Positions 1,877-57,724 of a stretch of 64,000 nucleotides of DNA are shown here, in pieces. This stretch comes from Ardenticatenaceae bacterium. GTDB taxonomy: Bacteria; Chloroflexota; Anaerolineae; Promineifilales; Promineifilaceae. The stretch covers positions 1 through 64,000 of the forward strand of contig WYBM01000035.1 of the NCBI GenBank assembly GCA_011525915.1, read 5' to 3'. A program made the translations under genes and the position numbers. Below the pieces are notes generated by a model. That model was not told where the DNA came from and did not search any database. It was given only the letters and a program-made list of their open reading frames with translations. The stretch's first letter is position 1, and every line of letters starts with the position of its first letter.

Positions 1877-1896
1877 ATTAAGATGCTCGTCTTAAT
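1877..1896 (+). promoter_or_regulatory. Hairpin directly before the ribosome binding site
   Basis: ATTAAGA (1877-1883) and TCTTAAT (1890-1896) form a 7-bp stem with a 6-nt loop. The Shine-Dalgarno AGGGAGG of the next gene starts within a few bases of it. It could modulate translation or mRNA stability. Confidence 0.4.
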
Positions 1897-1909
1897 AGGG
1901 AGGAAGATC

Positions 1910-3172: not shown

Positions 3173-3182
3173 AAGACTACAC

Positions 3183-3212
3183 ATTCCCGAACATGGTGCC
3201 ATGTTCGGGAAT
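3183..3212 (+). promoter_or_regulatory. Perfect 14-bp hairpin at operon junction
   Basis: ATTCCCGAACATGG (3183-3196) and its exact complement (3199-3212) are separated by only two bases. The hairpin lies between the octaheme gene and the next gene and just before TAGGAG. It covers an in-frame ATG (3193), which argues for the downstream TTG start. It may set relative expression or mRNA processing. Confidence 0.6.
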
Positions 3213-3228
3213 GGTAGGAGTAAGACGC

Positions 3229-4884: not shown

Positions 4885-4939
4885 TAGCAAATCACCGATT
4901 TGTTTGCGCCAAATGTTGTCTTGCCTTACGGGAGATAGG

Positions 4940-5794
4940 ATGACCTCTAAAGAACAACAATACGACCGCTTTCGGCTTGGTGCCCGGATTGAGCATATCA
5001 TTCTGCTGGTTAGTTTTACGGTGCTGGCCGTGACCGGCCTGCCACAGCGGTATGCCCAATGGGACTGGGCCCAAACCACCATCAATGCCCTGGGGGGCAT
5101 TGAAACGGTGCGCCTCATTCACCGCTATGCCGCCTTCTTGTTGGTCATTGGCTCTGTCTATCACCTATTCACCAGCGCCTACCGTTTATATGTGCGGCGT
5201 GAAAGAAACCGGATGATGCCAGACCGCAAAGATGCCGCCGACCTGGTGGGTTATGTGAAGTACAATCTGGGGCTGCAGGCAGAGCATCCCAAAATGCGTA
5301 AATTTAACTTTGGTGAGAAGCTGGAATTTTGGGCTGTGGTGTGGGGCACGGCCGTGATGATCATCACCGGCTTCATGTTGTGGAATCCCATTGCTACCAC
5401 CACTATCTTTCCCGGCCAGATCATCCCGGCGTCTAAAGCCGCCCACAGCTATGAAGCTTTGCTGGCAGTTGCTTCCATCATCATCTGGCATCTGTATAAC
5501 GTGGCTGTCAAACATTGGAACCCCAGCATGTGGACCGGTAAGCTGCCCCGCAAAATCATGGCCGAAGAACATGCCCTGGAACTGGAAAGAGTGGAAAGCG
5601 GCGAGCCGCCCTGGCCAGAAGTAGAGGCACCTGTTTTGCGCCGTCGCCGCCTGGTATTTGCCATAACCAGCGTGGTCGTGGGCAGCATTGTCCTGGTGGT
5701 GTTGATATGGGCTTTTACGTTTGAACAGACGGCGCTCATCACTATCACACCAACCAGGGAAGTATTTGTGCCTCTGGCCACACAGGTGCCCTGA
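4940..5794 (+). CDS. Cytochrome b561-like membrane subunit
   Basis: This 284-residue integral membrane protein has four main hydrophobic segments in the first 200 residues. They carry His residues typical of di-heme b-type cytochromes of the formate dehydrogenase/hydrogenase gamma type (for example ARIEHIILL, RLIHRYAAF, SKAAHSYEAL, IIWHLYNVAVKHW). A further C-terminal transmembrane helix (about 235-262) follows a charged linker. The start is the ATG at 4940 after GGGAGATAGG; open frame exists further upstream but overlaps the previous gene. Such subunits exchange electrons with the quinone pool. Placed among multiheme c cytochromes, it is the likely quinone-reactive module of the complex (inference). 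Confidence 0.85.
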   Translation: MTSKEQQYDRFRLGARIEHIILLVSFTVLAVTGLPQRYAQWDWAQTTINALGGIETVRLIHRYAAFLLVIGSVYHLFTSAYRLYVRRERNRMMPDRKDAADLVGYVKYNLGLQAEHPKMRKFNFGEKLEFWAVVWGTAVMIITGFMLWNPIATTTIFPGQIIPASKAAHSYEALLAVASIIIWHLYNVAVKHWNPSMWTGKLPRKIMAEEHALELERVESGEPPWPEVEAPVLRRRRLVFAITSVVVGSIVLVVLIWAFTFEQTALITITPTREVFVPLATQVP

Positions 5795-5904
5795 TGACTA
5801 AGGCCGCAAAGCACACAGAGGCTACAGAGCGTGAACCCTCTGCAGTCTCTGTGTTCTCTGTGGTAAAACAACCATTGAGCAACATGTTTTATTGTAGTTG
5901 TTTT

Positions 5905-5931
5905 TCTGGCACACACCCGGGATGTGCCAGA
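5905..5931 (+). promoter_or_regulatory. Hairpin in the leader of the decaheme gene
   Basis: TCTGGCACA (5905-5913) pairs with TGTGCCAGA (5923-5931), giving a 9-bp stem and 9-nt loop. It lies 30 nt upstream of the start codon and ahead of AGGAGG. It is another example of hairpins at the junctions of this operon. Confidence 0.5.
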
Positions 5932-5960
5932 TCATTCCTAACAAAAGGAGGAATTTCACT

Positions 5961-8198
5961 ATGACACACCCGAAATTTAGACGCATATGCCTTATTATCG
6001 GGTTTTTACTATTGTTCTCCTTCGGCATAACCGCCTGCTCTCAGGAGCCGGAAACCGTAGAGGTCACCCGCATTGTTGAAGTGCCGGTGGAGATTGAGGT
6101 TCCTGCCGAAACGGTAGAGGTTGAAGTGCCGGTAGAGGTGACGCGGGTGGTCGAGGTGATGGTGGAGCCGGACATGGCGATGTCCACCGTTCCCTTTGAA
6201 GAAGCATGGGCCAACTCGCCGCACGCGGACGCCGAAGCCCAAGCCTTTAATCACTGGAACGAAGATGACCCGGCCGAGATACCCATTGCCTGTGCTAAAT
6301 GCCACAGCACCACAGGTTTTATGGACTTTGTGGGCGCCGATGGCAGCGCCTTTGGTTCTGTGGAAACGGCCGTGTCCGTAGGTGAAGTGATCGAATGTCA
6401 GGCCTGCCACAATGATGCCACGGTGGAACTGGCCAGTGTTACCTTTCCTTCTGGGGTAGAGGTAACCGGGTTAGGGCCAGAAGCGCGTTGTATGACCTGC
6501 CATCAAGGCCGCGCCTCCACGGCTAGAGTCAACCAGGGCATTGCCGATGCCGGGCTGGACCCGGTAGCCGACCTGGATACGGTCAGCGCCGATGTGGGCT
6601 TTACCAATATTCATTACTATCCGGCAGCCGCCACACAATATGGCACCATCGCCATGGGCGGTTATGAATATGAAGGCAAGGCCTATGATTCCAAGTTTGA
6701 CCATGTTGAAGGTGTAGATACCTGCGTAGACTGCCACAATCCCCATACCCTGGAAGTGCAGTTTGATAAATGCACAGCCTGTCATCAAGATATGAGTGGC
6801 CCGGAAGACCTGGTAAATATCCGTATGCCTGGTTCGTTGGTAGATTACAACGGCAACGGTGATATCGAAGAAGGCATTATGGCCGAGATTACCGGGCTGC
6901 AAGCGGCTTTGTACCAGGCCATACAGGCGTATGCCAATGAAGTCACCGGCTCACCCATTGTGTATGACAGCGCCAGTTACCCCTACTTCTTTGCTGATGT
7001 CGATGGCAACGGTGAAATGAATGAAGGCGATGAGCGGTATGCCTCCTGGACGCCGCGCCTGGCCAAGGCCGCCTACAATTACCAGATGTCCCAAAAAGAC
7101 CCTGGTGAGTTTGCTCACGGTGGCAAATATACCATTCAACTGTTGTTTGATTCCATCGAAGACCTGAACCAGGCCATTTCTGAACCCGTTGACATGAGCG
7201 CCATGCGCCGCATTGACCACGGTCACTTTGCTGGTTCAGAAGCGGCGTTCCGCCGTTGGGACGAAGATGGTGAGGTGCCAGGTAACTGCAGCCGCTGCCA
7301 TTCGGCGGCCGGCTTGCCGTTGTTCATTGAACAAGGTGTGACCATCAACCAGCATCCGTCAAACGGCTTAAACTGCGCTACCTGCCACAATGATCTGGCC
7401 ACATTCAGCCGGTATACGGTGGAGAGCGTCCCGTTCCCCAGTGGAGCAACGCTGACGCTGGTGGAAGCAGAAGACGACGAAGCTGGCCTGGAAAGCAACA
7501 TGTGTATTAACTGTCACCAGGGACGCTCATCGACAGGCACGGTTAACCAACGATTGGGTGACCTGCCGGCCAATGACGTTTCAGACACCATCCGCTTTGT
7601 GAACATCCACTACTTTGCGGCCGGGGCCACGCTGTTTGGCAATGAGGCTCAAGGCGCCTACCAGTACGCGGACAAAGAATACTTGGGCCGTAATGAACAT
7701 GTCAACAGGTTTGATTCCTGTGTGGAATGCCATGACACGCATGCCCTGGAAGTGGTGGTGACGGAATGCGCCGACTGTCATGAAAATGTGGTGTCAGCCG
7801 CTGACCTGGTGAATATCCGTGACGAAGATAACACCACAGATTATGATGGTGATGGTGATGCTGCGGAAGGAATGGCTGGTGAAATTGCCACCATGGCCGA
7901 GGTGCTGTATGCAGCCATGCAAACGTATGCGGCCAACACCCCGGGCGCACTTCCTATCATCTACGATTCCCATCGTTACCCGTACTTCTTTGGCGACGCC
8001 GATGGCAATGGCGAGGTTAACGGCGAGGAGGCTGGTTACAACACCTTTACGCCGGAACTGCTGAAGGCCGCTTACAATTACCAATATGCTCAGAAAGACC
8101 CCGGCGCATTCGCCCATAATGGCAAGTATGTGCTGCAAGTCTTGTATGACTCCATTGAAGCGATTGGCGGTGATACTGCTGGTATGACACGGCCGTAA
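5961..8198 (+). CDS. Decaheme cytochrome c lipoprotein with internal duplication
   Basis: This 745-residue lipoprotein has a signal peptide with a Cys acceptor near residue 27, then a Val/Glu-rich linker of EVTRIVEVPVE-type repeats (about 30-72). Two homologous halves follow, each with five CXXCH motifs: CAKCH, CQACH, CMTCH, CVDCH, CTACH, then CSRCH, CATCH, CINCH, CVECH, CADCH. Each half also carries acidic loops such as DYNGNGD, DVDGNGE, DYDGDGD and DADGNGE that look like calcium sites. The start is the ATG at 5961 behind AGGAGG. It is last in the plus-strand cytochrome operon, ahead of a strong terminator. It is likely a surface electron carrier; no substrate can be read from the sequence. 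Confidence 0.88.
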   Translation: MTHPKFRRICLIIGFLLLFSFGITACSQEPETVEVTRIVEVPVEIEVPAETVEVEVPVEVTRVVEVMVEPDMAMSTVPFEEAWANSPHADAEAQAFNHWNEDDPAEIPIACAKCHSTTGFMDFVGADGSAFGSVETAVSVGEVIECQACHNDATVELASVTFPSGVEVTGLGPEARCMTCHQGRASTARVNQGIADAGLDPVADLDTVSADVGFTNIHYYPAAATQYGTIAMGGYEYEGKAYDSKFDHVEGVDTCVDCHNPHTLEVQFDKCTACHQDMSGPEDLVNIRMPGSLVDYNGNGDIEEGIMAEITGLQAALYQAIQAYANEVTGSPIVYDSASYPYFFADVDGNGEMNEGDERYASWTPRLAKAAYNYQMSQKDPGEFAHGGKYTIQLLFDSIEDLNQAISEPVDMSAMRRIDHGHFAGSEAAFRRWDEDGEVPGNCSRCHSAAGLPLFIEQGVTINQHPSNGLNCATCHNDLATFSRYTVESVPFPSGATLTLVEAEDDEAGLESNMCINCHQGRSSTGTVNQRLGDLPANDVSDTIRFVNIHYFAAGATLFGNEAQGAYQYADKEYLGRNEHVNRFDSCVECHDTHALEVVVTECADCHENVVSAADLVNIRDEDNTTDYDGDGDAAEGMAGEIATMAEVLYAAMQTYAANTPGALPIIYDSHRYPYFFGDADGNGEVNGEEAGYNTFTPELLKAAYNYQYAQKDPGAFAHNGKYVLQVLYDSIEAIGGDTAGMTRP

Positions 8199-8230
8199 CC
8201 AACCACCACCCGCATAGGTAACAACAAAAA

Positions 8231-8268
8231 GATGACAGCCACTTTCAAGTGGCTGTCATCTTTTCTTT
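8231..8268. terminator. Bidirectional rho-independent terminator
   Basis: A perfect 13-bp stem (8231-8243 with 8248-8260) has a 4-nt loop. It is followed by TTTTCTTT on the plus strand and preceded by AACAAAAA, which serves the minus strand. It lies between two convergent cytochrome operons. Confidence 0.9.
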
Positions 8269-8289
8269 AACTTATCTATGGACGTACCC

Positions 8290-10017
8290 TTACTTTTCGG
8301 GCGCGCCGGCGGCTATCCAATCAGCCAGAGCATCAAGTTCATCCTCTAACATCTGCCCAAAGTGTTCACGGGCCTCCGACTGTTTTTGAATGATCAGACT
8401 GGCTTCCGGGTTTCCGGGAACCAGCACCGGGCCGTTTTGGCCGCCGCGGCCCATGGCCTCATAGCTGCTCAGGTCCAGATCGGCTTCGGCTTTAACACCG
8501 CTGTGACAAAAGGTGCAACGGCCGTCAAACATCGTTCGGAATGTGCCTTCATATGTGCGCGGCACCCCCTCCAACAAATATGGGCTGGTGTGCAGCAAAA
8601 TGTATAGCTGCCGCTCCAGAACGGGCTGCAATTCTGTTGCATCAAAACCGGCGTACACCCATTCATTGGCATGGCAGGCGCTGTTGCCGCAAAATGAGCC
8701 ATCGGACGGCGGCTTTTCTGTGAGTTCTGTATAGTCTATAGACGGGTCTGCCGGCGCATGGCAGGCAGCACATGAGCTATCAATGGCTTTACCATGCAGG
8801 GTGATCCAACTGGAATGGGTATGTGATGGCGGTTCTGGCCCTCGCGGCAGTTCGATTGTGGTCACCAAGGCAGTATTATCCACCTGCGCCGGAATGGAGT
8901 GGCACAGATTGCATTCCAGACGAATGGCCTCGCCGCTGCCGGTGAGGTGCTTGCCATCATGGCAGCGAAAGCAGCCCGGATCATAGGTATGCCCCAGGTT
9001 ATTCGGGTGGGTATCCCAATCAATCTTTTGTTCGCGGAAAACAGATTGCTTGTAGATTTCTTGCACTGTTTTTACTGCTGCTTGCACGTCATCTGCACGT
9101 TCGGCATAAATGTCTGGGTAGGTTTCCGCATAAAAACTTTCCAGCCCGGCAATTCCTTCATAAGCAGCCTGATCACTCTCATACTCGGCGCTTAAAACGG
9201 CAAAAGCTTGCTGCCGTATATGGGGCAAATCGCCGGCGATCAAATATTTGCGCATAGCGGCATCAATGGCATTGCCTGGGTTGGGAATGTTATGGGTAAT
9301 GCGGTTGTGGCAGTTAAGGCAGTCCATGCGCGCCAAGACTGTACCAGCTATGTCGTCTGGTGTGTAGCCTGCACTGACGTCATAATATTCGCGGATATTG
9401 CCGGCTTCGTCTACCACCCGCACATAGGGGATGTCCTGTTCCAAGGCATCGGTGGCCAGGTAATAGACTTCGTTTTCAATGTGCCAGTGAATGCCCTGCC
9501 CCAATCCTTCACGCCGGGTGCCGCCGCCCGTTTTTAAGATGAGGTAGGTGTTTTCTGGCGTATTGTTTACATCATCGGCAAAGTGGTAAATTTCCCGCAG
9601 GCTGTCATCGGAGAATTTTTCAGGAAAGTGACACTTTTCACAGGTATCACGGGCGGGGCGCATCGCCCGGCTGTGAATGGGGAATTCATAATTTTGGGTA
9701 ATGGTCAACAACACATGGCGCAGATCACCTGCTTTGCGGGTGAATTGGGTAGTGACCACATCGCGGCCAATGTGGCATTCCACACACTGCACCCGGGCGT
9801 GTGGAGAGCGCTGATAGGCGCTGTATTCGGGCGGCATGGTATGGCAGGTGGTGCCACAGAATTCAGCGGAGTTGGTGTAAGTCCAGGCCTCCACGCTGCC
9901 ATAGGCAAATACGATGGTGACCATGCCTAAGACCACAAACGGCAGCAGGCGCAGCCACAAGGAACTGCCAGGGGGCGGAAGGAAAAAGTGTTTGAGGGCG
10001 GAAAACAGGTTGCGCAT
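8290..10017 (-). CDS. NapC/NirT-like nonaheme cytochrome c, membrane anchored
   Basis: This 575-residue protein has one N-terminal transmembrane anchor (about 22-45). A NapC/NrfH-like segment follows, with a CX3CH first site (CGTTCH, followed by TM) and CVECH. Further sites are CEKCH, CLNCH, CFRCH, CNLCH, CAACH, a CX4CH site (CGNSACH) and CTFCH, about nine hemes in all. The last about 80 residues resemble the small cytochrome domain of planctomycete-type proteins (from TFCHSGVKAEADLDL to the end). NapC-family proteins oxidise menaquinol and pass electrons outward. It lies 26 bp downstream of the octaheme lipoprotein at 10044, so the two are probably co-transcribed. Its role as quinol oxidase for that lipoprotein is inferred. 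Confidence 0.87.
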   Translation of the reverse strand: MRNLFSALKHFFLPPPGSSLWLRLLPFVVLGMVTIVFAYGSVEAWTYTNSAEFCGTTCHTMPPEYSAYQRSPHARVQCVECHIGRDVVTTQFTRKAGDLRHVLLTITQNYEFPIHSRAMRPARDTCEKCHFPEKFSDDSLREIYHFADDVNNTPENTYLILKTGGGTRREGLGQGIHWHIENEVYYLATDALEQDIPYVRVVDEAGNIREYYDVSAGYTPDDIAGTVLARMDCLNCHNRITHNIPNPGNAIDAAMRKYLIAGDLPHIRQQAFAVLSAEYESDQAAYEGIAGLESFYAETYPDIYAERADDVQAAVKTVQEIYKQSVFREQKIDWDTHPNNLGHTYDPGCFRCHDGKHLTGSGEAIRLECNLCHSIPAQVDNTALVTTIELPRGPEPPSHTHSSWITLHGKAIDSSCAACHAPADPSIDYTELTEKPPSDGSFCGNSACHANEWVYAGFDATELQPVLERQLYILLHTSPYLLEGVPRTYEGTFRTMFDGRCTFCHSGVKAEADLDLSSYEAMGRGGQNGPVLVPGNPEASLIIQKQSEAREHFGQMLEDELDALADWIAAGAPEK

Positions 10018-10043
10018 AACATTCTCCTGGTGTTGTCACCGGC

Positions 10044-11309
10044 TCAGGGTTGGGAAGTAGGGGTAGCCTCAGGCACGGCCGTAGGCTCTGGTGTGGGGTC
10101 AGGCGTGGCTGTAGGGGGTATCCAGGCATGGTATCCACGGGCCGCGGCGGCCAAGACGGCTGGCTCTTTTACATCGGCAAAGTCGCCGTTGTGGCATTGG
10201 CCACAAACATAGGTCAGTGTCAGGTATGGCATCACCTGGGTGCCGTCCTCGTTAAACTGGGGCGCATCAGGATCTGGGTTGATGGAAAATTGATGGGCAT
10301 GGATGTCGGCGGTAAACGTATCCAGGCGGCCCACGGCTGACCTGGCCATGAGCGGCATATGGCATTGGATGCAGGTGACACGGCCGTGACGGCTTACATT
10401 TTGCACCTGTTCTTGTGGCCAATGGCACGTTTCACATGCCTGGCTGATGCCTTTGTTGGGGCTCCGTTCAGCGTCTTCATAACGAGCGCTGGTGTGTGCA
10501 TCATGGCAGGTAATGCAGTCCAGGGCAAAATGTTTAGAGTTGTACAGATCGCTAAACTGCTGGTTGTGTTCGGCAAACCCCTCACGGGCATCGATGGTCG
10601 CTTTTTCGTCACGGACATGACAGTGGCCGCATAATTGGGCACTGCGGTCTACCACCAGGCGCACCCCCTGGGGGTCTTCCGCGTGGCGGCTGCCGGGACC
10701 GTGGCATTTTTCACATTGCACACCTTCATAGACCCACGTACCGTCAATCCCTTCGCGGTTATCCTGATGACCCTGGGTGGCGTAGCCCGTGGTGTGGCAG
10801 CGAGCACAGTCAAAAGCCACCGGCTCGCCCGGGTGGAAAGCGGCCCATTCGGCGTCCGTTTCCAGATTTTCATTGGCGAAGTTGTACTGGGCTGCCTCCC
10901 CGGTAATAACATAACCATCGTTGTCTACAAAACGAGCCATCCAGCCAAACCCCCCAATAACATAGCTGATGTCATCCCAGGTGTACCCGGCGGGTGGTGC
11001 TGGCAGGCCGTTAGTGATGTCGTCGTAGGGAAAAGCAGGGGGCTGGCCATTGCTGACAGCCGCAAGCGCGTTGGCATGGCCCGTCTGCAAAAAGCGGCTG
11101 TATATCTCTTCATGGCAAGAACCACATTGCGCCGCGCCCACAAAGGTCTGGCCGGCGGCGGCGTCTTCGCCGGCGGGGCCTACCGGGCCCATGGGCCCCG
11201 CCGGGCCGGCCGGGCCAAGTGGGCCGGCCTGGCCCTGAGGGCCAGCGCAGCTGACCACGGCTAAGCTTAACAACAGCAAAAGAGCAAACAGGTTATGGCT
11301 GTCAGGCAT
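10044..11309 (-). CDS. Second octaheme cytochrome lipoprotein with collagen-like stalk
   Basis: This 421-residue paralogue of the 1910-3172 product has a lipoprotein signal (VVSC, Cys about 21). A short collagen-like run of GPx triplets (about 22-47) comes next, then eight CXXCH motifs: CGSCH, CARCH, CEKCH, CGHCH, CITCH, CETCH, CIQCH, CGQCH. The C-terminus is Pro/Thr-rich, about 30 residues of TPDPTPEPT type, absent from the paralogue. The shared block AGYTWDDISYVIGG and the heme spacing show the relation. The start is the ATG at 11309 behind AAGGAGA. It is first in a two-gene minus operon with the NapC/NirT-like gene. Collagen-like stalks on cytochromes suggest cell-surface display. Confidence 0.9.
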   Translation of the reverse strand: MPDSHNLFALLLLLSLAVVSCAGPQGQAGPLGPAGPAGPMGPVGPAGEDAAAGQTFVGAAQCGSCHEEIYSRFLQTGHANALAAVSNGQPPAFPYDDITNGLPAPPAGYTWDDISYVIGGFGWMARFVDNDGYVITGEAAQYNFANENLETDAEWAAFHPGEPVAFDCARCHTTGYATQGHQDNREGIDGTWVYEGVQCEKCHGPGSRHAEDPQGVRLVVDRSAQLCGHCHVRDEKATIDAREGFAEHNQQFSDLYNSKHFALDCITCHDAHTSARYEDAERSPNKGISQACETCHWPQEQVQNVSRHGRVTCIQCHMPLMARSAVGRLDTFTADIHAHQFSINPDPDAPQFNEDGTQVMPYLTLTYVCGQCHNGDFADVKEPAVLAAAARGYHAWIPPTATPDPTPEPTAVPEATPTSQP

Positions 11310-47734: not shown

Positions 47735-50062
47735 ATGAAATGGGTGCAATACTATCATCGGCAAAGTCTGCGTACCAAATTGGTGTTTGCTTTTATGCTG
47801 ACAGTGTCTATCCCCCTGGTGGGGGCCAGTCTATATGGCAACTGGATCACCAGCCAGGTGCTGCAATCCCGTGCTGTGGAGGCGACCCAGGCAGATTTGC
47901 GCCTGCGCCGCTTACAAATGGAAGAAGCCCTGCGTGGTGTAGAGCAAGACCTGTTGTTCCTTAGCCAGATGAACTCCATGACGGCGCTGCTTAACGAGCG
48001 TACACTAGACAACCTGGCCCGTGTCCAGGTGGATTTTGCCGATTTTGTTGTTACCCATCCCTCTGTTTTTCAGGCTCGTTATCTGGACGAAACGGGGATG
48101 GAAGTGGTGCGTATTGATGCCGGACCTGAAGGCGCCAGCCTGGTTCCGCCACCGCACTTACAAAACAAGGCCGACCGTTATTACTTTACCCACACCATGA
48201 CCATGCCTCTGGGTGGCGTTTATATTTCGCCCATAGACTTGAACCGGGAATTTAGCCGAATTCAGCAGCCGCATACACCCACTATTCGTTATGCTACGCC
48301 CGTTTTTGCCGCCGACGGCCGTCGTGTTGGCATTGTTATCTTAAACCTGTATGCAGAGCCGCTGCTGCAATTTGCCAGAGGGGAAAAACTGGCGCTGACA
48401 GATGACGAGGGGTATTTTCTGACTCACCCGGATCCAGCGCTGGTGTGGGGCGGCCCATCTGACCTGAACACCAACGTGGGCGCGTTTACCATTTACCCGG
48501 AAGCGTGGCCACAAGTTCGCCAGCGTGATGTTGGTGTGATTACCCCTCAACCAGAGAATTGGGGGCAGGCCGTATGGGAATTTTTGATGCCGGTGCAGTC
48601 AGTAAATGACACCCGCCGTGTCCTGGCATATGAAGTGGTACAAGGTGGTAACAATCAATGGCATCTTATCGTGGACATGCCCCGCGCCAGTTTGTTTGCT
48701 TCCGTTTCCGCCTTTCGGGTCACGGCCGTGTTTATTATTCTTTGGGCACTGTTTATTGCGGCAATGATGGCTGTTGCCTTTTCTAGACAGTTAACCGACC
48801 CTATCCGCCGACTGACGGCTGATGTGCGCCAGTTTGGCCAGAAACGAGGCTTGTATTTAACCTGGCGCAAAAACTCTGCTGCTCCTTCAAATAATGAGAT
48901 TGAGACCCTGACATTTGCCTTTTATGACATGTCGACGGCTTTAGACCAGCACATGTTGCAGCTTTCAAAGCTAAACCTGGCCGGCCACCATATTGCCGCC
49001 CGCCTGGAAAAGCCAGAACTCTTAACGGCCGTAGCGACAGCCATACGCCGCCTTTTCCCGGTAGATTACTTCGTTCTCACCCTGGAAGGTAATGTCCTCT
49101 ATCGTGAAGGAGAGGCGAGTTGGGCCGCCTACCGCCATGAGCGGCTGACCCAGACGTTAATGCAAGACGCTCTGGATGCCGGTAACTGGACCATCATGGC
49201 CTTGTCTGCAGCCACACGGCCGTCTGGTTTTGTCTGCAGCGCCCCCATCTGTGTGGCCGGGCGGTTGGGGCTGATGGAGCTGTACGGCCGTGCCCCAATG
49301 CTTGGAGACAACATGACCGGTGAATTACTGGCCACGCTGGCCGTCCAGGTATCTGTGGCCCTGGAGAATGCAGAACTCGTAGCCCATCTGGCGCAGCGGC
49401 GAGCAGATTTGCAGACGCTGCTGGCGCAGTTGATGAATGCGCAGGAAGAGGAACGACGCCGGATCGCCTATGACATTCATGACGGACTGATTCAAATGTT
49501 GGTGGGGGTGCGGCTGCAACTGGTGAACTTTACCGCCGACCGGGAACGTGACGTCGTGCGGGCCACTGCCTCTCTGCAAAAAGGGATCGAGGGTCTGGGG
49601 AACTCAATTGTAGAAGCGCGCCGCATTATTGAGGGGCTGCGGCCGGCGGCGCTGGATGATCTGGGGCTGGTAGCTACCATCCATTATGCGGGCGAAGAGG
49701 CCGCGGCTGCCTGCGGCTGTACCCTAATGTTTACGGCCAACGTGCCTGACGGCCGTCTGCCGCCCACCCTAGAAACGACCGCCTTTCGCATTATGCAAGA
49801 AGCGATCACCAATGCCCGCAAATATGCCCAGATGACCTGTCTGTCCATTACCCTCAAGCAGGAAAACGCCCGTTTATACGTTGAAGTGCGGGACGACGGT
49901 CAGGGCTTTGACCTGGACCAGGTGGTGACGACCAGGGAAGGTGGGTTTGGTCTGCGCAGTATGCAGGAGCGGGCGCGCCTTATGGGCGGCAAATGTACCA
50001 TTGTCAGTGAACCGGGGCGGGGTACGGCCGTGCAACTCACCTTACCGCTCCCTTTAAGCTAA
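47735..50062 (+). CDS. NarX/LiaS-type sensor histidine kinase with dCache and GAF regions
   Basis: This 775-residue membrane kinase has helices at about 17-37 and 325-347 framing an extracellular sensor of Cache type (about 40-320). HAMP (about 350-400), a GAF-like region (about 420-550) and a HisKA_3 dimerisation domain with His582 (RRIAYDIHDGLIQM) follow, then a HATPase (DDGQGFDLDQV, GGFGLRSMQERA). The partner response regulator starts 9 bp downstream. It faces the idr-like gene cluster and may control it, though no binding site can be named. The start ATG follows a -10 box directly. Confidence 0.9.
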   Translation: MKWVQYYHRQSLRTKLVFAFMLTVSIPLVGASLYGNWITSQVLQSRAVEATQADLRLRRLQMEEALRGVEQDLLFLSQMNSMTALLNERTLDNLARVQVDFADFVVTHPSVFQARYLDETGMEVVRIDAGPEGASLVPPPHLQNKADRYYFTHTMTMPLGGVYISPIDLNREFSRIQQPHTPTIRYATPVFAADGRRVGIVILNLYAEPLLQFARGEKLALTDDEGYFLTHPDPALVWGGPSDLNTNVGAFTIYPEAWPQVRQRDVGVITPQPENWGQAVWEFLMPVQSVNDTRRVLAYEVVQGGNNQWHLIVDMPRASLFASVSAFRVTAVFIILWALFIAAMMAVAFSRQLTDPIRRLTADVRQFGQKRGLYLTWRKNSAAPSNNEIETLTFAFYDMSTALDQHMLQLSKLNLAGHHIAARLEKPELLTAVATAIRRLFPVDYFVLTLEGNVLYREGEASWAAYRHERLTQTLMQDALDAGNWTIMALSAATRPSGFVCSAPICVAGRLGLMELYGRAPMLGDNMTGELLATLAVQVSVALENAELVAHLAQRRADLQTLLAQLMNAQEEERRRIAYDIHDGLIQMLVGVRLQLVNFTADRERDVVRATASLQKGIEGLGNSIVEARRIIEGLRPAALDDLGLVATIHYAGEEAAAACGCTLMFTANVPDGRLPPTLETTAFRIMQEAITNARKYAQMTCLSITLKQENARLYVEVRDDGQGFDLDQVVTTREGGFGLRSMQERARLMGGKCTIVSEPGRGTAVQLTLPLPLS

Positions 50063-50071
50063 AATAGCGGC

Positions 50072-50734
50072 ATGGCAAAATCAATCACGGTACTCATTGC
50101 GGATGATCATGGCGTTGTACGTGAAGGCTTGCGAGCCATGCTGGAACGTGAAGGTTTCCAGGTAGTGGCCGAAGCAAGTACCGGTCGTGAAGCCATTGAA
50201 CAGGTGAGTGCTCACAATCCCCAGGTGGTATTGCTGGATATTCGCATGCCTGATCTAGATGGCTTGCAAGCCCTGGCCGCCATCAAAGAGGCGCATCCGC
50301 ATACGGCCGTTATCATGCTCACTTCCCACACCTACCCGGCGTATCTGGCCCGTGCCGTGGCTTATGGCGCGGCCGGTTTCCTTTCTAAAGAAGTAGACCC
50401 GGCTAAAATTCCGGCGACGGTGCGGGCCGCTGCCGAAGGAAATCATTTGCTGGACAGGGAGTTGTTACAGATGGCCCTGGCCACGGCCGTGGCTGACTAC
50501 CCTACCCCCCAGACCACAGCCGAATTTACCCCCACCCCCGATGACCTGTTGACCGAAGCTGAACGGCGCGTCTTGCGCCTGATTGGCCAGGGGCTGGACA
50601 ACACCGCCATCGCCCAATCCCTGCATCTTTCGCCCAACACCATCAAAACCCACGTCCGCCACATCTTTGAAAAGCTGCATGTCTCTGACCGTACCCAGGC
50701 GGCCTTGTGGGCTGTGCGGCACGGTTTTGCCTGA
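50072..50734 (+). CDS. NarL/LuxR-type response regulator
   Basis: This 220-residue protein has a standard receiver (acidic pair in LIADDHG, acceptor Asp56 in VVLLDIRMPD, Lys in FLSKEVD) and a LuxR HTH (LTEAERRVLRLIGQGLDNTAI, about 160-215). The length and motifs are complete, unlike the degenerate regulator at 1054. It is the cognate partner of the kinase at 47735 and lies 162 bp before the peroxidase/molybdoenzyme cluster. Confidence 0.92.
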   Translation: MAKSITVLIADDHGVVREGLRAMLEREGFQVVAEASTGREAIEQVSAHNPQVVLLDIRMPDLDGLQALAAIKEAHPHTAVIMLTSHTYPAYLARAVAYGAAGFLSKEVDPAKIPATVRAAAEGNHLLDRELLQMALATAVADYPTPQTTAEFTPTPDDLLTEAERRVLRLIGQGLDNTAIAQSLHLSPNTIKTHVRHIFEKLHVSDRTQAALWAVRHGFA

Positions 50735-50896: not shown

Positions 50897-52381
50897 ATGC
50901 AAACACCTTTTAAACTCTTACTGGCTGGCTTGTTTGCCCTGCTTGTTGCTGCGGTGGTGAGCCTGATAAACGGTCGGCCTACGGCCGTATTTAGCGCCCA
51001 AACGGACGATCCCCCTGACAGGGTGACACAGGCCGCTTTTACGGCCGCCGGCTGCGGCGGCTGCCACGTCATTCCCGGCATTCCCAACGCGGTGGGCCAG
51101 GTAGGGCCAGATTTAACGAACATCGGCAGTGACGCTGCTAACCGGGTGGCCGGGCAAGACGCCGAAGCTTATATCCGCGAATCTGTGCTGAACCCTAATG
51201 CTTTCATCGCCCCGGTGTGCCCCGCCGGTGAATGCCCCAGCGACGTGATGCCACCTAACATGGCTGACCGCCTCAGCGCCAGCGAGTTTGACTACATCGT
51301 TGCGCACTTACTCACTTTGCAAGGGGAAGGCGTCACCAGCCCACCGCCTTATGAACTGACGCCAATTGAGATAACACGGCCGTCAGAAGCCAGCCTCACC
51401 CCCTTTGCCGAACCGCCCAAAACATATGAAGATGCCCAGGTTTTGCTGGGTAAATACCTCTTTTTTGACCCCCGACTTTCTGGGGATTCTAGTGTAAGCT
51501 GCGCCACTTGCCACCAGCCTGACAAAGCCTATGCCGACGGCCTGGCCCTCAGCGAGGGGTACACCAGCATGGGCTACTTCCGTAACACACCTACCCTCTA
51601 CAACACCGTCTACAACGAGGGGTATCTGTATTGGGACGGCCGTCTGGATGCCCTGGATATGCCTACGACTGTTCGTGATCATCTAACCGAAGCCCACTTT
51701 ATGAACAGTGACGGCCGTTTGCTGGTTGAACGCCTCAAACAGGTGCCCGAATACGTTCAGCTCTTCCAGGACGCCTACGGCAAGAACCCCTCCTTCGGCG
51801 GCGTTCTCAACGCCATCACGGCCTACGTTCACAGCTTGAACAGTGCTGCCACCCCCTATGATCTGTACCTGGCCGGGGAGCAGGACGCCCTGTCCACAGA
51901 GGCACTGGCCGGCCTGGAACTGTTTCAGGCCAACTGTGCCGCCTGCCACAGCGGCCCCACCTTCAGTGATGGCGCATTTTACGTCTCTGGCGTCCCTGAA
52001 AACGGGGACATCTGGGCAGACCCCATGCGGCACATCACCTTCCGCCACTTTATGCGCCAGCTTGGCGTGCCCAACTATCGTAACCTGGCAGCTGACGTTG
52101 GTTTGTATGATGTCACCAAAGAAGCGGCTGATTGGGGCGCGTTCCGCACAGCCCCCCTGCGTGAAGCCGCACACACCGCACCGTACATGCACAATGGCGT
52201 TTTGGGCACGCTGGCAGAGGTGGTTGACTTTTACAATGACTCATTAGCCCTGAACCTTACGGCCGCCGAGAAAGCTCAACTGCTGGCTTTCCTCAACAGC
52301 CTCAGTTCACCAGAACTACCCGCCGTGGAAGCAACCGATCAGCCCACATACCAACTGCGCACATTAGGAGACAACCAATGA
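50897..52381 (+). CDS. Triheme cytochrome c peroxidase-like protein (IdrP1/MauG family)
   Basis: This 494-residue exported protein (signal anchor about 7-30) has an extra N-terminal cytochrome c domain (CGGCH, about residue 53). The di-heme peroxidase module follows with CATCH (about 200) and CAACH (about 350) and conserved blocks FFDPRLSGDSSVSCATC, YWDGRLDALDMP and FRTAPLREAAHTAPYMHNG, each shown in part. Such enzymes reduce peroxide with electrons from cytochrome c. The context (second peroxidase, Rieske, AioA-type subunit) matches IdrP1/IdrP2 of iodate reductase. It starts at ATG 50897 with AAGGAGG and overlaps the next gene by four bases. Confidence 0.88.
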   Translation: MQTPFKLLLAGLFALLVAAVVSLINGRPTAVFSAQTDDPPDRVTQAAFTAAGCGGCHVIPGIPNAVGQVGPDLTNIGSDAANRVAGQDAEAYIRESVLNPNAFIAPVCPAGECPSDVMPPNMADRLSASEFDYIVAHLLTLQGEGVTSPPPYELTPIEITRPSEASLTPFAEPPKTYEDAQVLLGKYLFFDPRLSGDSSVSCATCHQPDKAYADGLALSEGYTSMGYFRNTPTLYNTVYNEGYLYWDGRLDALDMPTTVRDHLTEAHFMNSDGRLLVERLKQVPEYVQLFQDAYGKNPSFGGVLNAITAYVHSLNSAATPYDLYLAGEQDALSTEALAGLELFQANCAACHSGPTFSDGAFYVSGVPENGDIWADPMRHITFRHFMRQLGVPNYRNLAADVGLYDVTKEAADWGAFRTAPLREAAHTAPYMHNGVLGTLAEVVDFYNDSLALNLTAAEKAQLLAFLNSLSSPELPAVEATDQPTYQLRTLGDNQ

Positions 52382-53640
52382 GCGATAAGAATCAAAACCA
52401 AAGTGGCGACATGAAATCTTTTGTTATTGTGATGGCCTTCGGGTTGGCGGGCATGTTAATCATCATCGGTTTCGGTATTTTTTACTACACGTACCTGAAT
52501 TCGTCAGCTCAAACAAAAACGACTGACGCCCCCACGGCCGTCACTGACGCCACGGGCACAGAAACGGCGGCAACAACAGTTACCGGGCCACCGCCATTAG
52601 CCCCTTTACCGCCAGTCAGCTTCCCGCCAGACAACCCCTACAGCATGGCCAAGGCCGAACTGGGGCGCCTGCTTTACTTTGACCCGCGCTTCTCCGGTGA
52701 TGGCTCTATCTCTTGTAACTCTTGCCACCCGGCCAGTGATGGCAGTTGGAGCGTATCCAGCCCCATCTCTTTTGGCTACCCCGGCAGTACCCACTGGCGC
52801 AATGCCTCCACCATCATTAACAGCGCCTACTACAGCAGGGTCAACTGGGACGGCAGCGCTACCAGCCTGGAAAAACAGGCCAACGGTGCCTGGGGTGGTG
52901 CCGTGGCCGGGAACATAGATTCCGCCCTGGCAGAAGAGCGGCTGGCGCAGATTCCTGACTATGTGCGCCTCTTCAAAGAAGTGTATGGCACAGAGTACCC
53001 CACCTGGGGGCAGGCGCTGGATGCCGTAGCTACCTTTGAACGTACCATTGTCAGCCAGAATGTGCCATTTGACGCTTACCTTAGCGGTGATAGCCATGCT
53101 CTTTCTGATGAAGCCAAAGCGGGTTATGATCTGTTTGTCGGCCGGGCGAACTGTATTGCCTGCCACAACGGCCCGCTTATCAGTGATGACTCGTTCCACA
53201 ACACGGCCGTGCCGGAAGCCCCTGAATTCACCAACAACCCCCTGAACCAGATAACCTTCCGGTATGAGCAGTGGGCCAAAGGGGTGACGGAAGAAGATTA
53301 CAACACGGCCGTGGCTGATTTTGGCCTCTATTACATCACCAAGATGGAAAGTGACCGGGGCAGCTTCCGTACGCCTGGCCTGCGTGATGTTTGTTATACG
53401 GCCCCTTATATGCACAACGGCATTTTTAAAACCCTGGAAGAGGTAGTCGCCTTTTATAATGCCGGGGGTGGCAGCAGTCCCCATAAAGACCCGCTTCTTC
53501 AGCCGCTCAACCTGACAGACGACGAGCAGGCATCTTTAATTGCCTTCCTACAAAGCCTCTGTGGTGACAAATTGATCATCCAGGCGCCGGAACTGCCGCC
53601 ATACGCCCCATCAGATATGAGCGAGGCCAGTGGCCCGTAG
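52378..53640 (+). CDS. Di-heme cytochrome c peroxidase-like protein (IdrP2/MauG family)
   Basis: This 420-residue protein has an N-terminal helix (about 16-38) as signal anchor, a Thr-rich linker, and two heme sites, CNSCH and CIACH. The blocks LGRLLYFDPRFSGDGSISC and FRTPGLRDVCYTAPYMHNG are shared with its neighbour at 50897. It overlaps that gene (ATGA), so they are co-translated. The two are probably partners; in idr loci they are thought to deal with hydrogen peroxide or reactive iodine intermediates. Confidence 0.88.
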   Translation: MSDKNQNQSGDMKSFVIVMAFGLAGMLIIIGFGIFYYTYLNSSAQTKTTDAPTAVTDATGTETAATTVTGPPPLAPLPPVSFPPDNPYSMAKAELGRLLYFDPRFSGDGSISCNSCHPASDGSWSVSSPISFGYPGSTHWRNASTIINSAYYSRVNWDGSATSLEKQANGAWGGAVAGNIDSALAEERLAQIPDYVRLFKEVYGTEYPTWGQALDAVATFERTIVSQNVPFDAYLSGDSHALSDEAKAGYDLFVGRANCIACHNGPLISDDSFHNTAVPEAPEFTNNPLNQITFRYEQWAKGVTEEDYNTAVADFGLYYITKMESDRGSFRTPGLRDVCYTAPYMHNGIFKTLEEVVAFYNAGGGSSPHKDPLLQPLNLTDDEQASLIAFLQSLCGDKLIIQAPELPPYAPSDMSEASGP

Positions 53641-53641
53641 G

Positions 53642-53720
53642 CACTATTCAGTATTCAGTTGTCACTATTCAGTGGCAGGGAGTGATCAATCACTAACGAC
53701 TGAATACTGAACACCGAATA
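53642..53720. repeat. ACTGA-type intergenic repeat
   Basis: CACTATTCAGTATTCAGTTG and GACTGAATACTGAACACC units lie in inverted order between the second peroxidase and the Rieske gene. They can form a long imperfect hairpin inside the cluster. Confidence 0.6.
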
Positions 53721-53739
53721 TAAAAGCCGGAGAAAAATT

Positions 53740-54294
53740 ATGACTGAAAACCTTTGTGATCCTACTCAAACTGTCATTTCCCGCCGTGGCTTCCTCAAAT
53801 TGGGGACGGCCGCTGTGGTGACCATTACCCTGCCCGCCTATCTGCGTAAGCCGGGCATGCCCATCACCTTTAAAGCCAATCTGGCCCAATATGAGCAAAA
53901 AGTTATTGCCAAAATGAGTGCGCTGAAGCCAAATGAACCGGTCGCCTTCAACTATCCCTGGGATGATCCGGCTGCCGCTAACTTCTTGATCATGCTCAAC
54001 GAACCAGCCGGTGGTGGCATAGGCCCAGACCAAAACGTGGTGGCCTTTAACAGCTTTTGTACGCACCAGGGTGGCCCGCTTACCGGGCAGTTCCAGGGCA
54101 ATAAAGGCATTGCTGGCCCCTGCCCCTTGCATTGGACGACGTTTGATATGACCCGGCATGGTATGGTCATCAGCGGCCATGCAACGCAGGGATTGCCCCA
54201 AATCTTATTAACATTGGAAGGTGATAACATTATCGCCACCGGTGTGATGGGCTTGATTTTTGGGTACGTTGATAACCAGGAAAACCCAGCTTAG
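53740..54294 (+). CDS. Rieske [2Fe-2S] small subunit, AioB/IdrB family
   Basis: This 184-residue protein has a Tat signal (SRRGFLKLG, about 14-22) and a Rieske domain with both cluster-binding loops, C-T-H in FCTHQGG and C-P-L-H in GPCPLHWTTFD. AioB/IdrB proteins accept electrons from or give them to the molybdenum subunit and carry it through the Tat pathway. The start at 53740 has GGAGAAA upstream. It is followed directly by the large subunit gene, the standard pairing. Confidence 0.9.
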   Translation: MTENLCDPTQTVISRRGFLKLGTAAVVTITLPAYLRKPGMPITFKANLAQYEQKVIAKMSALKPNEPVAFNYPWDDPAAANFLIMLNEPAGGGIGPDQNVVAFNSFCTHQGGPLTGQFQGNKGIAGPCPLHWTTFDMTRHGMVISGHATQGLPQILLTLEGDNIIATGVMGLIFGYVDNQENPA

Positions 54295-54307
54295 GTGGCG
54301 GCTGCTG

Positions 54308-54322
54308 ACGAGCTTCGCTCGT
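54308..54322 (+). promoter_or_regulatory. Small hairpin at the junction of the two reductase subunits
   Basis: ACGAGC/GCTCGT with a 3-nt loop (possibly one further G-T pair) lies between the Rieske stop codon and AAGAGGA of the next gene. Confidence 0.45.
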
Positions 54323-54356
54323 TTAGAAGAGCATGTCACCTTTCCAAGAGGAAACT

Positions 54357-57005
54357 ATGTCAGACGAATACACTCCCCAAGACAGTGTCCCTATTCCCCC
54401 ACCGGATGCTAACGTTTATACTACTGCCTGCGACTACTGCGTGGTGGCCTGTGGCTACAAAGTTTATACCTGGCCCACCGATAGCAAAAATGGCGGTCGT
54501 GCGGCCGAAGAAAACGCTTTTGGCCGGCCCATTGGTGGTATATTCAGCCCCTGGGTTAGCCCAAACCAGCACAACATCGTTTCTGTGGATGGCCAGCCGC
54601 ACCATGCTGTTGTGGTAGCAGACTTTGATTCGGCCGTTGTCAACAAGGCAGGCAACCACTCCATTCGCGGCGGTACCCTGGCCCTGAAGTGTTACAACCC
54701 TGAAACCCCCACCCGTGACCGCCTGCAATACCCGCAAATCCGCGTCAAAGGTCAGTTGGAACGGGTAGATTGGGATACCGCCACCGAGGTGATGGCCGAA
54801 GTTTCCAAACATGTCCTTAAGAAATATGGCGAAGCCGCCTGGGCAATGAAAACGTACTCCTACGAATTTTTTGAAAACACATTTGCCATTACCAAACTGG
54901 CCTTTAACGCCATCAAGACCCCCGCCTACTCACCCCATGACAAGCCCAGCGCCGGTAATGACACAGCTGGTGTGGATGATAGCGGCATCATCACCTTTAG
55001 CGCCAGCTATAAAGATTGGGCCGAAGCCGATGTCCTCTTCATTTCTGGCACTGACCCATTTGAAACAAAGACCATCGTCTTCACCAGTTGGATTATGAAC
55101 GGGCCAAAGTTGATCATGGCGCTGCCCCGCCGTACGGCCGGCGTAGCCTACGCCGAAGCCAACGGCGGCCTTTTCCTGCAAGTAAACCCTGGCTCTGATA
55201 CCCTGCTGCATCTGGCCCTCATCCGCTATATTCTGGAGCAGGGTTGGGAAGACAAAGCGTTTATTGACCACTGGATCGCTTCCAGTTGGGAAATTGAAAT
55301 GGGCATGGGGCGCGGCACACGCAACACTCCCTGGCAGTGGCGCACGACCTGGGGCAAACTGGGTGGCGACTATGACAGTTACCGGGAATGGATACTCAAT
55401 TACGAACCGGCCACGCTGGCGTTTGCAGCAGAAGTTACGGGCGTGCCGGCAGAACAGATCATCCAGGCGGCGGAAATGCTGACAGGAGCCGGTGGAGAAC
55501 GGCCGAAGAGCTCCTTTGCTTTTGAAAAAGGCAACTACTGGTCTAACAATTACACCAACACTGCCTCTTATGCGGCGTTGGGGCTGATCAACGGTGCTGG
55601 TAACCGCCCCGGCCGTATGATCAGCCGGATGGGCGGCCATCAACGCGGTTGGATGGGCGCCGGCTCTTATCCGCGTGAAAAGTCGCCAGAGAAGCTGCCC
55701 GGCCGCCGCAAGCGTGAACTGGATCTAGACCGTTGGGTAGAAGCAGGGCAGGTGCGTTTTGCCTGGGTCATTGGCACCACCTGGACGGGGGCGATGGCCG
55801 CCAGTCAGGAATTTGAACGCCGTTTCCGTGAGATGACCTCAGAACACCCGGTGCAAATCACCTCGTCAGATAAACAGTCCATCATCGCGGCTCTCATCAA
55901 GCGGGTGGATGAAGGGGGCATGGTTGTGGTCAACTCTGACATTTATCCGGTAGTGCCCATCAATACCGAATTTGCAGACATCGTGCTGCCGGCCGCTGCC
56001 TGGGGTGAGCATGACGCTGCCCGCAACAATGGTGAACGTCGCCTGCGACTTTACGCCAAGTTTTATGATGCACCAGGAGAGGCACAGCCAGATTGGTGGG
56101 CCATTGCTAAATTTGCGCAAAAGATGGGCTTTGAGGGGTTTGATTGGGAAGATGATAACGCCGTCTTTGAAGAAGCCGCCCGTTTCAGCCGCGGCGGCCA
56201 TCGCGATTACTATGTGTTGGTGTGGCGGGCGCGGCAGTTGGGCATGAGGGGGCATGAACTGCTGCGTACGTTGGGCACACAGGGCATCCAGACGCCCATT
56301 CGCTGGGTCAATGGAGAGATGGTGGGCACAGAGCGGCTGCATGACTCGACGCTGGCACTGGCGGCACCGCAAGGGCCAACCATGCACCATAAATGGCTGA
56401 CGCATTTCCATACCCATTCAGGCAAGGCCATTTTGAATAAATCACCCTGGGAATTGTTTGATGATTTCTACCAACACATTAAACCAGATCGCAGTAAAGG
56501 GGAGTTATGGTTGACCAGCGGCCGTATTAATGAAATCTGGCAGTCCGGTGCAGATGACATACGTAAGCCATATATATATAATCGCTGGCCAGATACGTGG
56601 GTGGAAATTCACCCCGACGATGCCATAGAATTTGGCATTGAAAGTGGAGATGAAGTGCGTATGTGGAGCGATCAGATCCTGGTACAAGACGGCGGCTGGA
56701 TTTTGGTGAAGGGGGATGATATGTCCTTTACCAGCCTTATGGCGCAAGGGCTTATTCGCACCGGCCGTGGCGAGGCGCGTGCGGTGGCCATTGTATCTGA
56801 GGACACAAAACCGGGCGTGTTGTTTACCAACTTCCTACATCCATCCAGCCCGTCAAATTCGCTGGTGCACCGTGTGCCAGACCCGATTACAAATGCTTAC
56901 CGCTTTAAACTGGGCAAAGCGTTTATTGAAAAAACAGGCGAGTCGCCCTATAAAAACTCCTTTGAAGCGATGACGTTTAAGGAGCGGACGACAAAACCGC
57001 AGTAA
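54357..57005 (+). CDS. idrA: Molybdopterin oxidoreductase catalytic subunit, AioA/IdrA family (likely iodate reductase)
   Basis: This 882-residue member of the DMSO-reductase superfamily has an N-terminal FeS motif C25-x2-C28-x3-C32 (CDYCVVACGY). It has no signal peptide, so it would ride with the Tat-bearing Rieske subunit. Motifs include RGGTLALKCYNP, a catalytic-region RMGGHQRGWMGAG and C-terminal cofactor-binding motifs (NSLVHRVPDP). AioA proteins are usually about 825-845 residues; the larger size, and two di-heme peroxidases plus a Rieske partner in the same operon, favour iodate reductase IdrA over arsenite oxidase. Arsenite oxidase remains possible. The start at ATG 54357 has AAGAGGA. 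No ACGGCCGT occurs across this gene. Confidence 0.75.
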   Translation: MSDEYTPQDSVPIPPPDANVYTTACDYCVVACGYKVYTWPTDSKNGGRAAEENAFGRPIGGIFSPWVSPNQHNIVSVDGQPHHAVVVADFDSAVVNKAGNHSIRGGTLALKCYNPETPTRDRLQYPQIRVKGQLERVDWDTATEVMAEVSKHVLKKYGEAAWAMKTYSYEFFENTFAITKLAFNAIKTPAYSPHDKPSAGNDTAGVDDSGIITFSASYKDWAEADVLFISGTDPFETKTIVFTSWIMNGPKLIMALPRRTAGVAYAEANGGLFLQVNPGSDTLLHLALIRYILEQGWEDKAFIDHWIASSWEIEMGMGRGTRNTPWQWRTTWGKLGGDYDSYREWILNYEPATLAFAAEVTGVPAEQIIQAAEMLTGAGGERPKSSFAFEKGNYWSNNYTNTASYAALGLINGAGNRPGRMISRMGGHQRGWMGAGSYPREKSPEKLPGRRKRELDLDRWVEAGQVRFAWVIGTTWTGAMAASQEFERRFREMTSEHPVQITSSDKQSIIAALIKRVDEGGMVVVNSDIYPVVPINTEFADIVLPAAAWGEHDAARNNGERRLRLYAKFYDAPGEAQPDWWAIAKFAQKMGFEGFDWEDDNAVFEEAARFSRGGHRDYYVLVWRARQLGMRGHELLRTLGTQGIQTPIRWVNGEMVGTERLHDSTLALAAPQGPTMHHKWLTHFHTHSGKAILNKSPWELFDDFYQHIKPDRSKGELWLTSGRINEIWQSGADDIRKPYIYNRWPDTWVEIHPDDAIEFGIESGDEVRMWSDQILVQDGGWILVKGDDMSFTSLMAQGLIRTGRGEARAVAIVSEDTKPGVLFTNFLHPSSPSNSLVHRVPDPITNAYRFKLGKAFIEKTGESPYKNSFEAMTFKERTTKPQ

Positions 57006-57009
57006 ATAT

Positions 57010-57064
57010 GATTGGCGATCAGGGAGGAACGATTGGAAAATCTCTAATCCCCGGATCGCCAATC
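57010..57064 (+). promoter_or_regulatory. 11-bp inverted repeat before the FmdE start codon
   Basis: GATTGGCGATC (57010-57020) pairs with GATCGCCAATC (57054-57064), and the arm ends four bases before the ATG at 57068. An AGGGAGG sits in the loop. The fold could control how ribosomes reach the start. Confidence 0.5.
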
Positions 57065-57067
57065 TCT

Positions 57068-57724
57068 ATGAAAAACATGACACAGCTTGCAGAATTACTC
57101 ACACAATCGGCTGAACTGCACAAACATTTGTGTCCGCGCCAGGTGTTGGGGGTGCGGATGGGGTTGTTTGGTGGTGAACTGCTGGGTCTGGCCGTGCCCC
57201 AGGCAAAAAAGCGGCTGTTGACCATTATGGAAACAGATGGGTGTGGGGCCGACGGGGTTGCGGTGGCCACGAATTGTTGGGTTGGCCGGCGCACAATGCG
57301 TATTGAGGATTACGGCAAGATGGCGGCGACATTTGTAGATACCCGGACGGAAACGGCCGTACGTGTTTACCCTCACCCTCATTGCCGGGAAAGGGCGCTT
57401 ACCTATGCCCCCGAAGCCAGGAATCAGTGGGAAGGGTATCTGTGGGGCTACCAGCGGATGCCAGTAGCTGAGCTGTTGGTGGCGCAGGTTGTGCAGCTGC
57501 GCCAGCCGGTAGCGGAGATCATTAGCAAACCTGGGGTGCGCACGTTATGTGATCGCTGTGGCGAGGAGATCATTAATCAGCGGGAAGTCATGTGGGGAAG
57601 CCTGACCATGTGCCGGGGGTGTGCCGGAGAAAGATATTACGATGAAACGCAAGGGCTGATGACCGATTTGCCTGGCAGCCCATGTCATCAGGAGGCGGAC
57701 TCCCTTTTGCCCAAAGGCTCATGA
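57068..57724 (+). CDS. FmdE-like protein with C-terminal zinc ribbon
   Basis: This 218-residue protein has an FmdE domain (about 8-135), with HLCPRQVLGVRMG, ETDGCGADGVAVATNCWVG and a metal-binding Cys/His set. A C-terminal four-Cys zinc ribbon follows (CDRC, then CRGC, about 160-195). FmdE genes accompany molybdenum or tungsten enzymes such as formylmethanofuran dehydrogenase. Here the gene ends the idr-like cluster and may help mature the cofactor (inference). The start is taken at ATG 57068; an ATG at 57008 would add 20 codons through a hairpin. Confidence 0.8.
   Translation: MKNMTQLAELLTQSAELHKHLCPRQVLGVRMGLFGGELLGLAVPQAKKRLLTIMETDGCGADGVAVATNCWVGRRTMRIEDYGKMAATFVDTRTETAVRVYPHPHCRERALTYAPEARNQWEGYLWGYQRMPVAELLVAQVVQLRQPVAEIISKPGVRTLCDRCGEEIINQREVMWGSLTMCRGCAGERYYDETQGLMTDLPGSPCHQEADSLLPKGS

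Follow-up and report, generated by a model that had tools for sequence, protein, structure and literature searches.

The window analyzed here, a 64,000-nucleotide (nt) stretch of an Ardenticatenaceae (Chloroflexota) genome, carries two peroxidase genes, a gene for a Rieske protein with a twin-arginine translocation (Tat) signal, a gene for an AioA-family molybdoenzyme, and an FmdE gene in a single plus-strand run. From their sequences, we infer that this cluster is likely an idr-type iodate reductase module working at the outer face of the cell membrane, with iodate as its probable substrate. The original prediction for this DNA had placed the same five genes and called them an idr-type set in a Chloroflexota genome; all five are present where it put them, and the call is supported by tree placement, pocket residues, Rieske spacing, and peroxidase orthology. 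The core enzyme is not new: this is a known idr system in its usual order, extended to a little-studied phylum.

Phylogenetic analysis placed the large subunit, as predicted, in the IdrA clade of proteins encoded beside peroxidases, with AioA outside (Shimodaira-Hasegawa-like approximate likelihood ratio test support of 100 and 99 in two trees). Its closest relatives are proteins from an Ardenticatenaceae genome (82% identity), a Chloroflexi metagenome-assembled genome (78%), and Caldilineaceae and Chloroflexi (70 to 72%), with further ones at 50 to 65% identity in Dehalococcoidia, Rokubacteria, Planctomycetota, and Proteobacteria. Experimentally confirmed iodate reducers are represented in these trees by relatives only, from Azonexus (L101) and Roseovarius sp. 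(L067). An alternative is that the enzyme is a divergent arsenite oxidase (Aio) that lies beside two peroxidases by chance. NCBIfam does name both subunits "arsenate reductase (azurin)" above its curated cutoff, and the best solved relatives are AioA proteins, yet identity to arsenite oxidases is only about 28%, a constraint grouping the window protein with AioA was rejected by the approximately unbiased (AU) test (p-AU, 1.2e-6), and there are no aio or ars genes among the neighboring open reading frames (ORFs) read.

Twelve alignment columns tell the 10 AioA apart from the 78 Idr-type proteins compared, and at every one of them the window protein is Idr-like. Around the active site, it retains the His, Arg, and second His of the AioA pocket, which taken alone would suit an arsenite oxidase. 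The AioA pocket Glu, however, is Asp in the window and something other than Glu in 77 of the 78 Idr-type proteins; we take this residue to be Glu203 in A. faecalis numbering and the roles of the AioA pocket residues to be those of the Alcaligenes structure. Beside the pocket histidine stands Asp203, an Asp in 78/78 Idr proteins and an Asn in AioA. Likewise, the HQEGY of AioA becomes HQRG in Idr (Arg in 77/78), with Arg438 in the window where AioA has Glu. The expected difference from the AioA pocket is thus present, and the combination that marks AioBA, membership in the AioA clade together with pocket His, Glu, Arg, and His, is not found in the window protein. An arsenite oxidase is, on these grounds, very unlikely.

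The remaining motifs describe IdrA as a Mo-bis(molybdopterin guanine dinucleotide) enzyme with no conserved amino acid metal ligand and with a [3Fe-4S] site of the form CX2CX3C and a downstream Ser (C33, C36, C40, and S110, numbered from the alternative start at 54333). We prefer the start at 54357 because a GAGGA ribosome-binding site precedes its ATG and because the relative with 82% identity begins at the same point. The resulting protein is longer than a typical AioA, as had been noted, but its length is normal for IdrA (883 amino acids [aa] in L006 and 881 aa in L016). IdrA has no signal peptide, while IdrB has a Tat signal. The Rieske motif of IdrB has a spacing of 18, as in Azoarcus sp. 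DN11 (PMC10149662), compared with 17 in a clade without peroxidases and 13 to 15 in AioB.

This peroxidase-less clade is small, consisting of Acidimicrobiia and one Chloroflexota protein, and lies between AioA and IdrA in the trees. Its loci (L069, L070, L075, L077, L079, and L080) hold a B-A pair without peroxidase genes, and its pocket reads HH in place of HN or HD; the Rieske spacing of 17 applies where it could be read. A partial relative of 630 codons from another Chloroflexota genome (L110, G380; 42% identical) forms a long branch just outside the group of Idr and Acidimicrobiia proteins.

The order of the genes was first described as reversed, and here the prediction failed. Among IdrA-clade loci collected at one genome per species (about 60), every contig of sufficient length shows peroxidase-peroxidase-B-A, the exceptions being a Dehalococcoidia form and one fused pair in Rokubacteria. 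Published clusters agree: two peroxidases always precede idrAB (PMC8801600), and the run in "Ca. Methylomirabilis iodofontis" is given as idrP2, P1, B, A (PMC10989891). The name idrABP1P2 is a naming order, not a transcription order. In the Dehalococcoidia/Chloroflexi form (L005, L006, L007, and L060), a single idrP1-type peroxidase directly precedes the IdrA-type gene, with neither a second peroxidase nor an intervening Rieske gene, a minimal two-gene arrangement. The Rokubacteria exception (L009:4198-6396) is one open frame of 733 codons with four CxxCH motifs in which both Idr peroxidases are apparently fused.

A tree of the diheme parts of the peroxidases resolves first-position and second-position clades, each with support of 100, and both window proteins group with their positional orthologs. 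By this sequence-based placement, the first is the idrP2 ortholog and the second the idrP1 ortholog, in the naming of PMC10989891. Where an idr peroxidase is expected to have exactly two hemes, the first peroxidase of the window has three CxxCH motifs, and domain matches bear out the extra heme domain that had been predicted. The third heme is an extension and not the loss of a defining part, the diheme core being orthologous. All five two-peroxidase Chloroflexota clusters share such an increase: the first peroxidases of L003 and L010 have four CxxCH motifs, and those of L001, L016, and the window have three. Elsewhere, every intact first peroxidase counted has two, except the fused protein of L009, and both DN11 peroxidases are described as diheme.

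The first peroxidase begins with a hydrophobic helix, followed by a monoheme cytochrome c domain (residues ~42 to 145) and a diheme CcpA/MauG-type peroxidase; the second peroxidase also begins with a hydrophobic stretch. The added domain shares 48% identity with the C-terminal domain of a diheme cytochrome c of the host bc-type complex, whose gene adjoins those for cytochrome b and a Rieske subunit. A structure model of the protein (mean predicted local distance difference test [pLDDT] score, 68) is not reliable enough for positioning the extra domain. As side observations, the four-CxxCH proteins are L003:3237-5222 (Chloroflexi) and L010:1113-3155 (Caldilineaceae), the latter with a second copy of the cytochrome c domain at the C terminus, so that the diheme peroxidase is flanked by one on either side.

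Proteobacterial idr clusters frequently include a separate gene for cytochrome c551 (PMC8801600), and the window run has none, so the carrier cytochrome is probably fused to the peroxidase in these Chloroflexota and replaces free c551. No Omp85 protein was found in the host genome, consistent with a single-membrane cell, which may find it difficult to retain a soluble carrier in the periplasm. In the model we propose, IdrB would carry IdrA out through Tat, and electrons would pass from quinol through a cytochrome bc-type complex to a c-type heme (probably the fused monoheme domain) and on through the Rieske and [3Fe-4S] centers to Mo. There, iodate would be reduced to hypoiodous acid, which would then disproportionate as in the Denitromonas model (PMC8692401), and the peroxidases would remove oxidant by-products. 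FmdE would probably help the Mo enzyme mature, and the kinase and regulator encoded directly upstream would probably sense iodate or redox state. Removal of hypoiodous acid by a chlorite dismutase was also considered; it is unsupported by linkage, as no chlorite-dismutase-type gene lies at the idr locus, and the one elsewhere in the genome is a partial match of 52 bits.

The genetic proof of idrA function comes from Denitromonas (PMC8692401), and several points weigh against carrying it this far. The tested enzymes are proteobacterial, and none is known from the Rokubacteria/Chloroflexota half of the clade, so the substrate is extrapolated across ~49 to 56% identity to proteobacterial proteins; the host genome is a draft assembly; and we infer the electron path and the roles of the fused heme and FmdE. 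One could instead suppose an Idr-type enzyme for another oxidant (bromate, chlorate, selenate, or an organic N- or S-oxide) with protective peroxidases. The lack of a tested member in this half of the clade leaves room for that, as does the loop after HD, which reads KPSAGND in the window and TPSDVTS in most proteobacteria. Against it, the synteny of the four genes is complete and the HD and HQRG residues are (nearly) invariant, which favors a single chemistry throughout the clade, and a published neighborhood analysis treats all carriers of idrABP1P2 as likely iodate reducers (PMC8692401). We consider a different oxidant unlikely and iodate reduction the likely function. A bolder form of that function is possible though doubtful: an iodate respiration of the Chloroflexota's own, for a cell that lacks an outer membrane, in which the membrane-anchored triheme peroxidase (tetraheme in Caldilineaceae), with its added heme domain resembling bc-complex cytochrome c, would act as a hub passing electrons from the bc complex on to IdrAB and to the peroxidase sites in place of soluble c551, and FmdE would be a dedicated Mo-enzyme maturation factor.

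FmdE closes the cluster, as predicted, and matches PF02663 at 97.9 bits (Pfam cutoff, 22.9). Among idr loci, it follows idrA only in the window and in L016 (72% identical). FmdE genes occur in 34 of 52 host-family genomes, and we fetched 40 FmdE neighborhoods (599 kb; idr loci excluded, some stretches sharing genomes). A MopB-family gene is present in 21 of the 40, two of which are the query sources, versus about 1 expected from the 12 MopB genes that the host genome carries in 7.46 Mb; the count depends on the query, with family-specific queries giving 21/40 and distant ones, which miss the 1,100-residue enzymes, 7/40. A MopB, TorD, NarH, or NrfD-type gene is found in 24/40. In the host genome itself, each of the three FmdE genes is found alongside a MopB gene. 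Given this recurrent MopB neighborhood across the host family, FmdE is best seen as a putative molybdoenzyme-associated accessory joined to the idr run. The other host FmdE loci (G000:C6:316816, L137; G000:C93:58036, L138) and 38 family loci within L117 to L156 often lie in or beside operons of the dimethyl sulfoxide (DMSO) reductase superfamily.

Table 1. Genes of the idr cluster and its upstream two-component pair, in coordinates of the forward strand of the 64,000-nt window (contig WYBM01000035.1, assembly GCA_011525915.1).
Feature	Coordinates	Strand	Basis
Histidine kinase, Cache-type sensor + HisKA_3 + HATPase_c	47735..50062	+	Pfam
NarL/LuxR-type response regulator	50072..50734	+	Pfam
First peroxidase, idrP2 position, 494 aa, 3 CxxCH	50897..52381	+	Pfam/NCBIfam, heme counts, peroxidase tree
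Second peroxidase, idrP1 ortholog, diheme, 420 aa, 2 CxxCH, N-terminal membrane anchor	52378..53640	+	Pfam/NCBIfam, heme counts, peroxidase tree
IdrB-type Rieske [2Fe-2S] subunit, 184 aa, Tat motif SRRGFL, CxHx18CxxH	53740..54294	+	TIGR02694 above cutoff, motif spacing
IdrA-type molybdopterin oxidoreductase, 882 aa, [3Fe-4S] motif CX2CX3C...S	54357..57005	+	
FmdE family protein, C-terminal four-cysteine zinc-finger-like motif	57008..57724 (start possibly 57068 or 57077)	+	PF02663

All of the cluster ORFs are intact, the main ones with ribosome-binding sites, and the start of the second peroxidase overlaps the stop of the first. The histidine kinase is likely the sensor partner of the adjoining response regulator, which in turn likely regulates the idr cluster. 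Regulator orthologs lie upstream of idr in L016 (79% identity; no kinase gene adjoins it there) and L001 (70%), and a kinase-regulator pair also precedes the Rokubacteria cluster of L009. On a plasmid of Azonexus hydrophilus NCP973, the order is sensor, regulator, peroxidase, peroxidase, B, A, cytochrome c, moaA; we found no report of iodate reduction by this strain in the open-access literature searched. About 40 kb upstream of idr, at window positions 1883 to 11309, are five multiheme cytochrome genes on both strands (8, 14, 10, 7, and 8 CxxCH motifs; one NapC/NirT-like).

The cluster is rare. The large subunit was found in 2 of 52 family genomes and in none of five congeners, and in a phylum-wide draw of 400 genomes, Idr-like identity was seen only in the host and G381, with two further matches, one at 32% that is AioA-type in the tree and a partial one at 42%. 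The regulator has a 79%-identical counterpart beside the idr genes of the second family member (G020), whereas four congeners reach 40 to 43% at best and the fifth has none. A regulator traveling with the cluster and this distribution fit horizontal spread, which has been proposed for idr (PMC8692401). G+C content is even along the window and gives no signal of recent transfer; in the congeners, the genes flanking idr lie on different contigs, so no insertion point is visible.

Absence of the cluster from all five congeners, together with a listed contamination of 5.3%, could also suggest a mis-binned contig or a decaying gene set. Against this, the reading frames and ribosome-binding sites are preserved, and an 82%-identical, intact cluster exists in the second family genome. 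Moreover, the contig can be assigned to the host lineage because, 3 kb upstream of the first peroxidase, it carries a citrate synthase gene with 87 to 89% identity to those of all five congeners and because its G+C content is even. Such an artifact is the remotest of the explanations considered here, and the cluster is best read as an iodate reductase locus of this lineage.

We found no earlier report of a Chloroflexota iodate reductase in the open-access literature searched; a "Chloroflexi bac." sequence is listed as the best hit of the "Ca. M. iodofontis" idrP1 (PMC10989891). The window offers a complete, intact iodate reductase cluster in Chloroflexota, a phylum absent from the idrA hosts named in the idr papers we found. 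A clade-wide change, the fusion of a heme domain, points to an electron route into the enzyme where cells lack a conventional periplasm, and FmdE, a family of unclear function, gains a testable link to DMSO-reductase-family enzymes.

Compared with known systems, AioBA (e.g., of Pseudorhizobium NT-26) shares the superfamily, the B-A order, the 3Fe-4S site, and the pocket His/Arg/His with the window but has no peroxidases and differs in the pocket and Rieske features described above. The triheme peroxidase YhjA of E. coli (PDB 9qdt) is a possible analog of the first peroxidase, with an N-terminal membrane helix and heme motif plus a diheme peroxidase. Identity is 30% over the peroxidase part, the N-terminal heme domains are not alignable by sequence, and the structural match (404 columns; root mean square deviation, 16.8; model mean pLDDT, 68) is only a lead. 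The idr cluster of "Ca. Methylomirabilis iodofontis" (PMC10989891) resembles the window in its P2-P1-B-A order, its nonproteobacterial host, and a function that is predicted only; unlike in the window, no FmdE is mentioned there, and the text read gives no heme number for idrP2. The idrABP1P2 clusters of Pseudomonas sp. SCT, Denitromonas sp. IR-12, Azoarcus sp. DN11, and Roseovarius azorensis have the same four genes in the same order. They also share a large subunit in the IdrA clade, the [3Fe-4S] and CxHx18CxxH motifs, a B subunit with a Tat signal, and an A subunit without any signal; DN11 also has two-component genes upstream (PMC10149662). The window differs from these reference clusters in having a NarL-type rather than a sigma-54-type regulator; its run also lacks moaA and a separate c551 gene, and it stands apart through its Chloroflexota branch, its triheme first peroxidase with a fused cytochrome c, and FmdE as its last gene.

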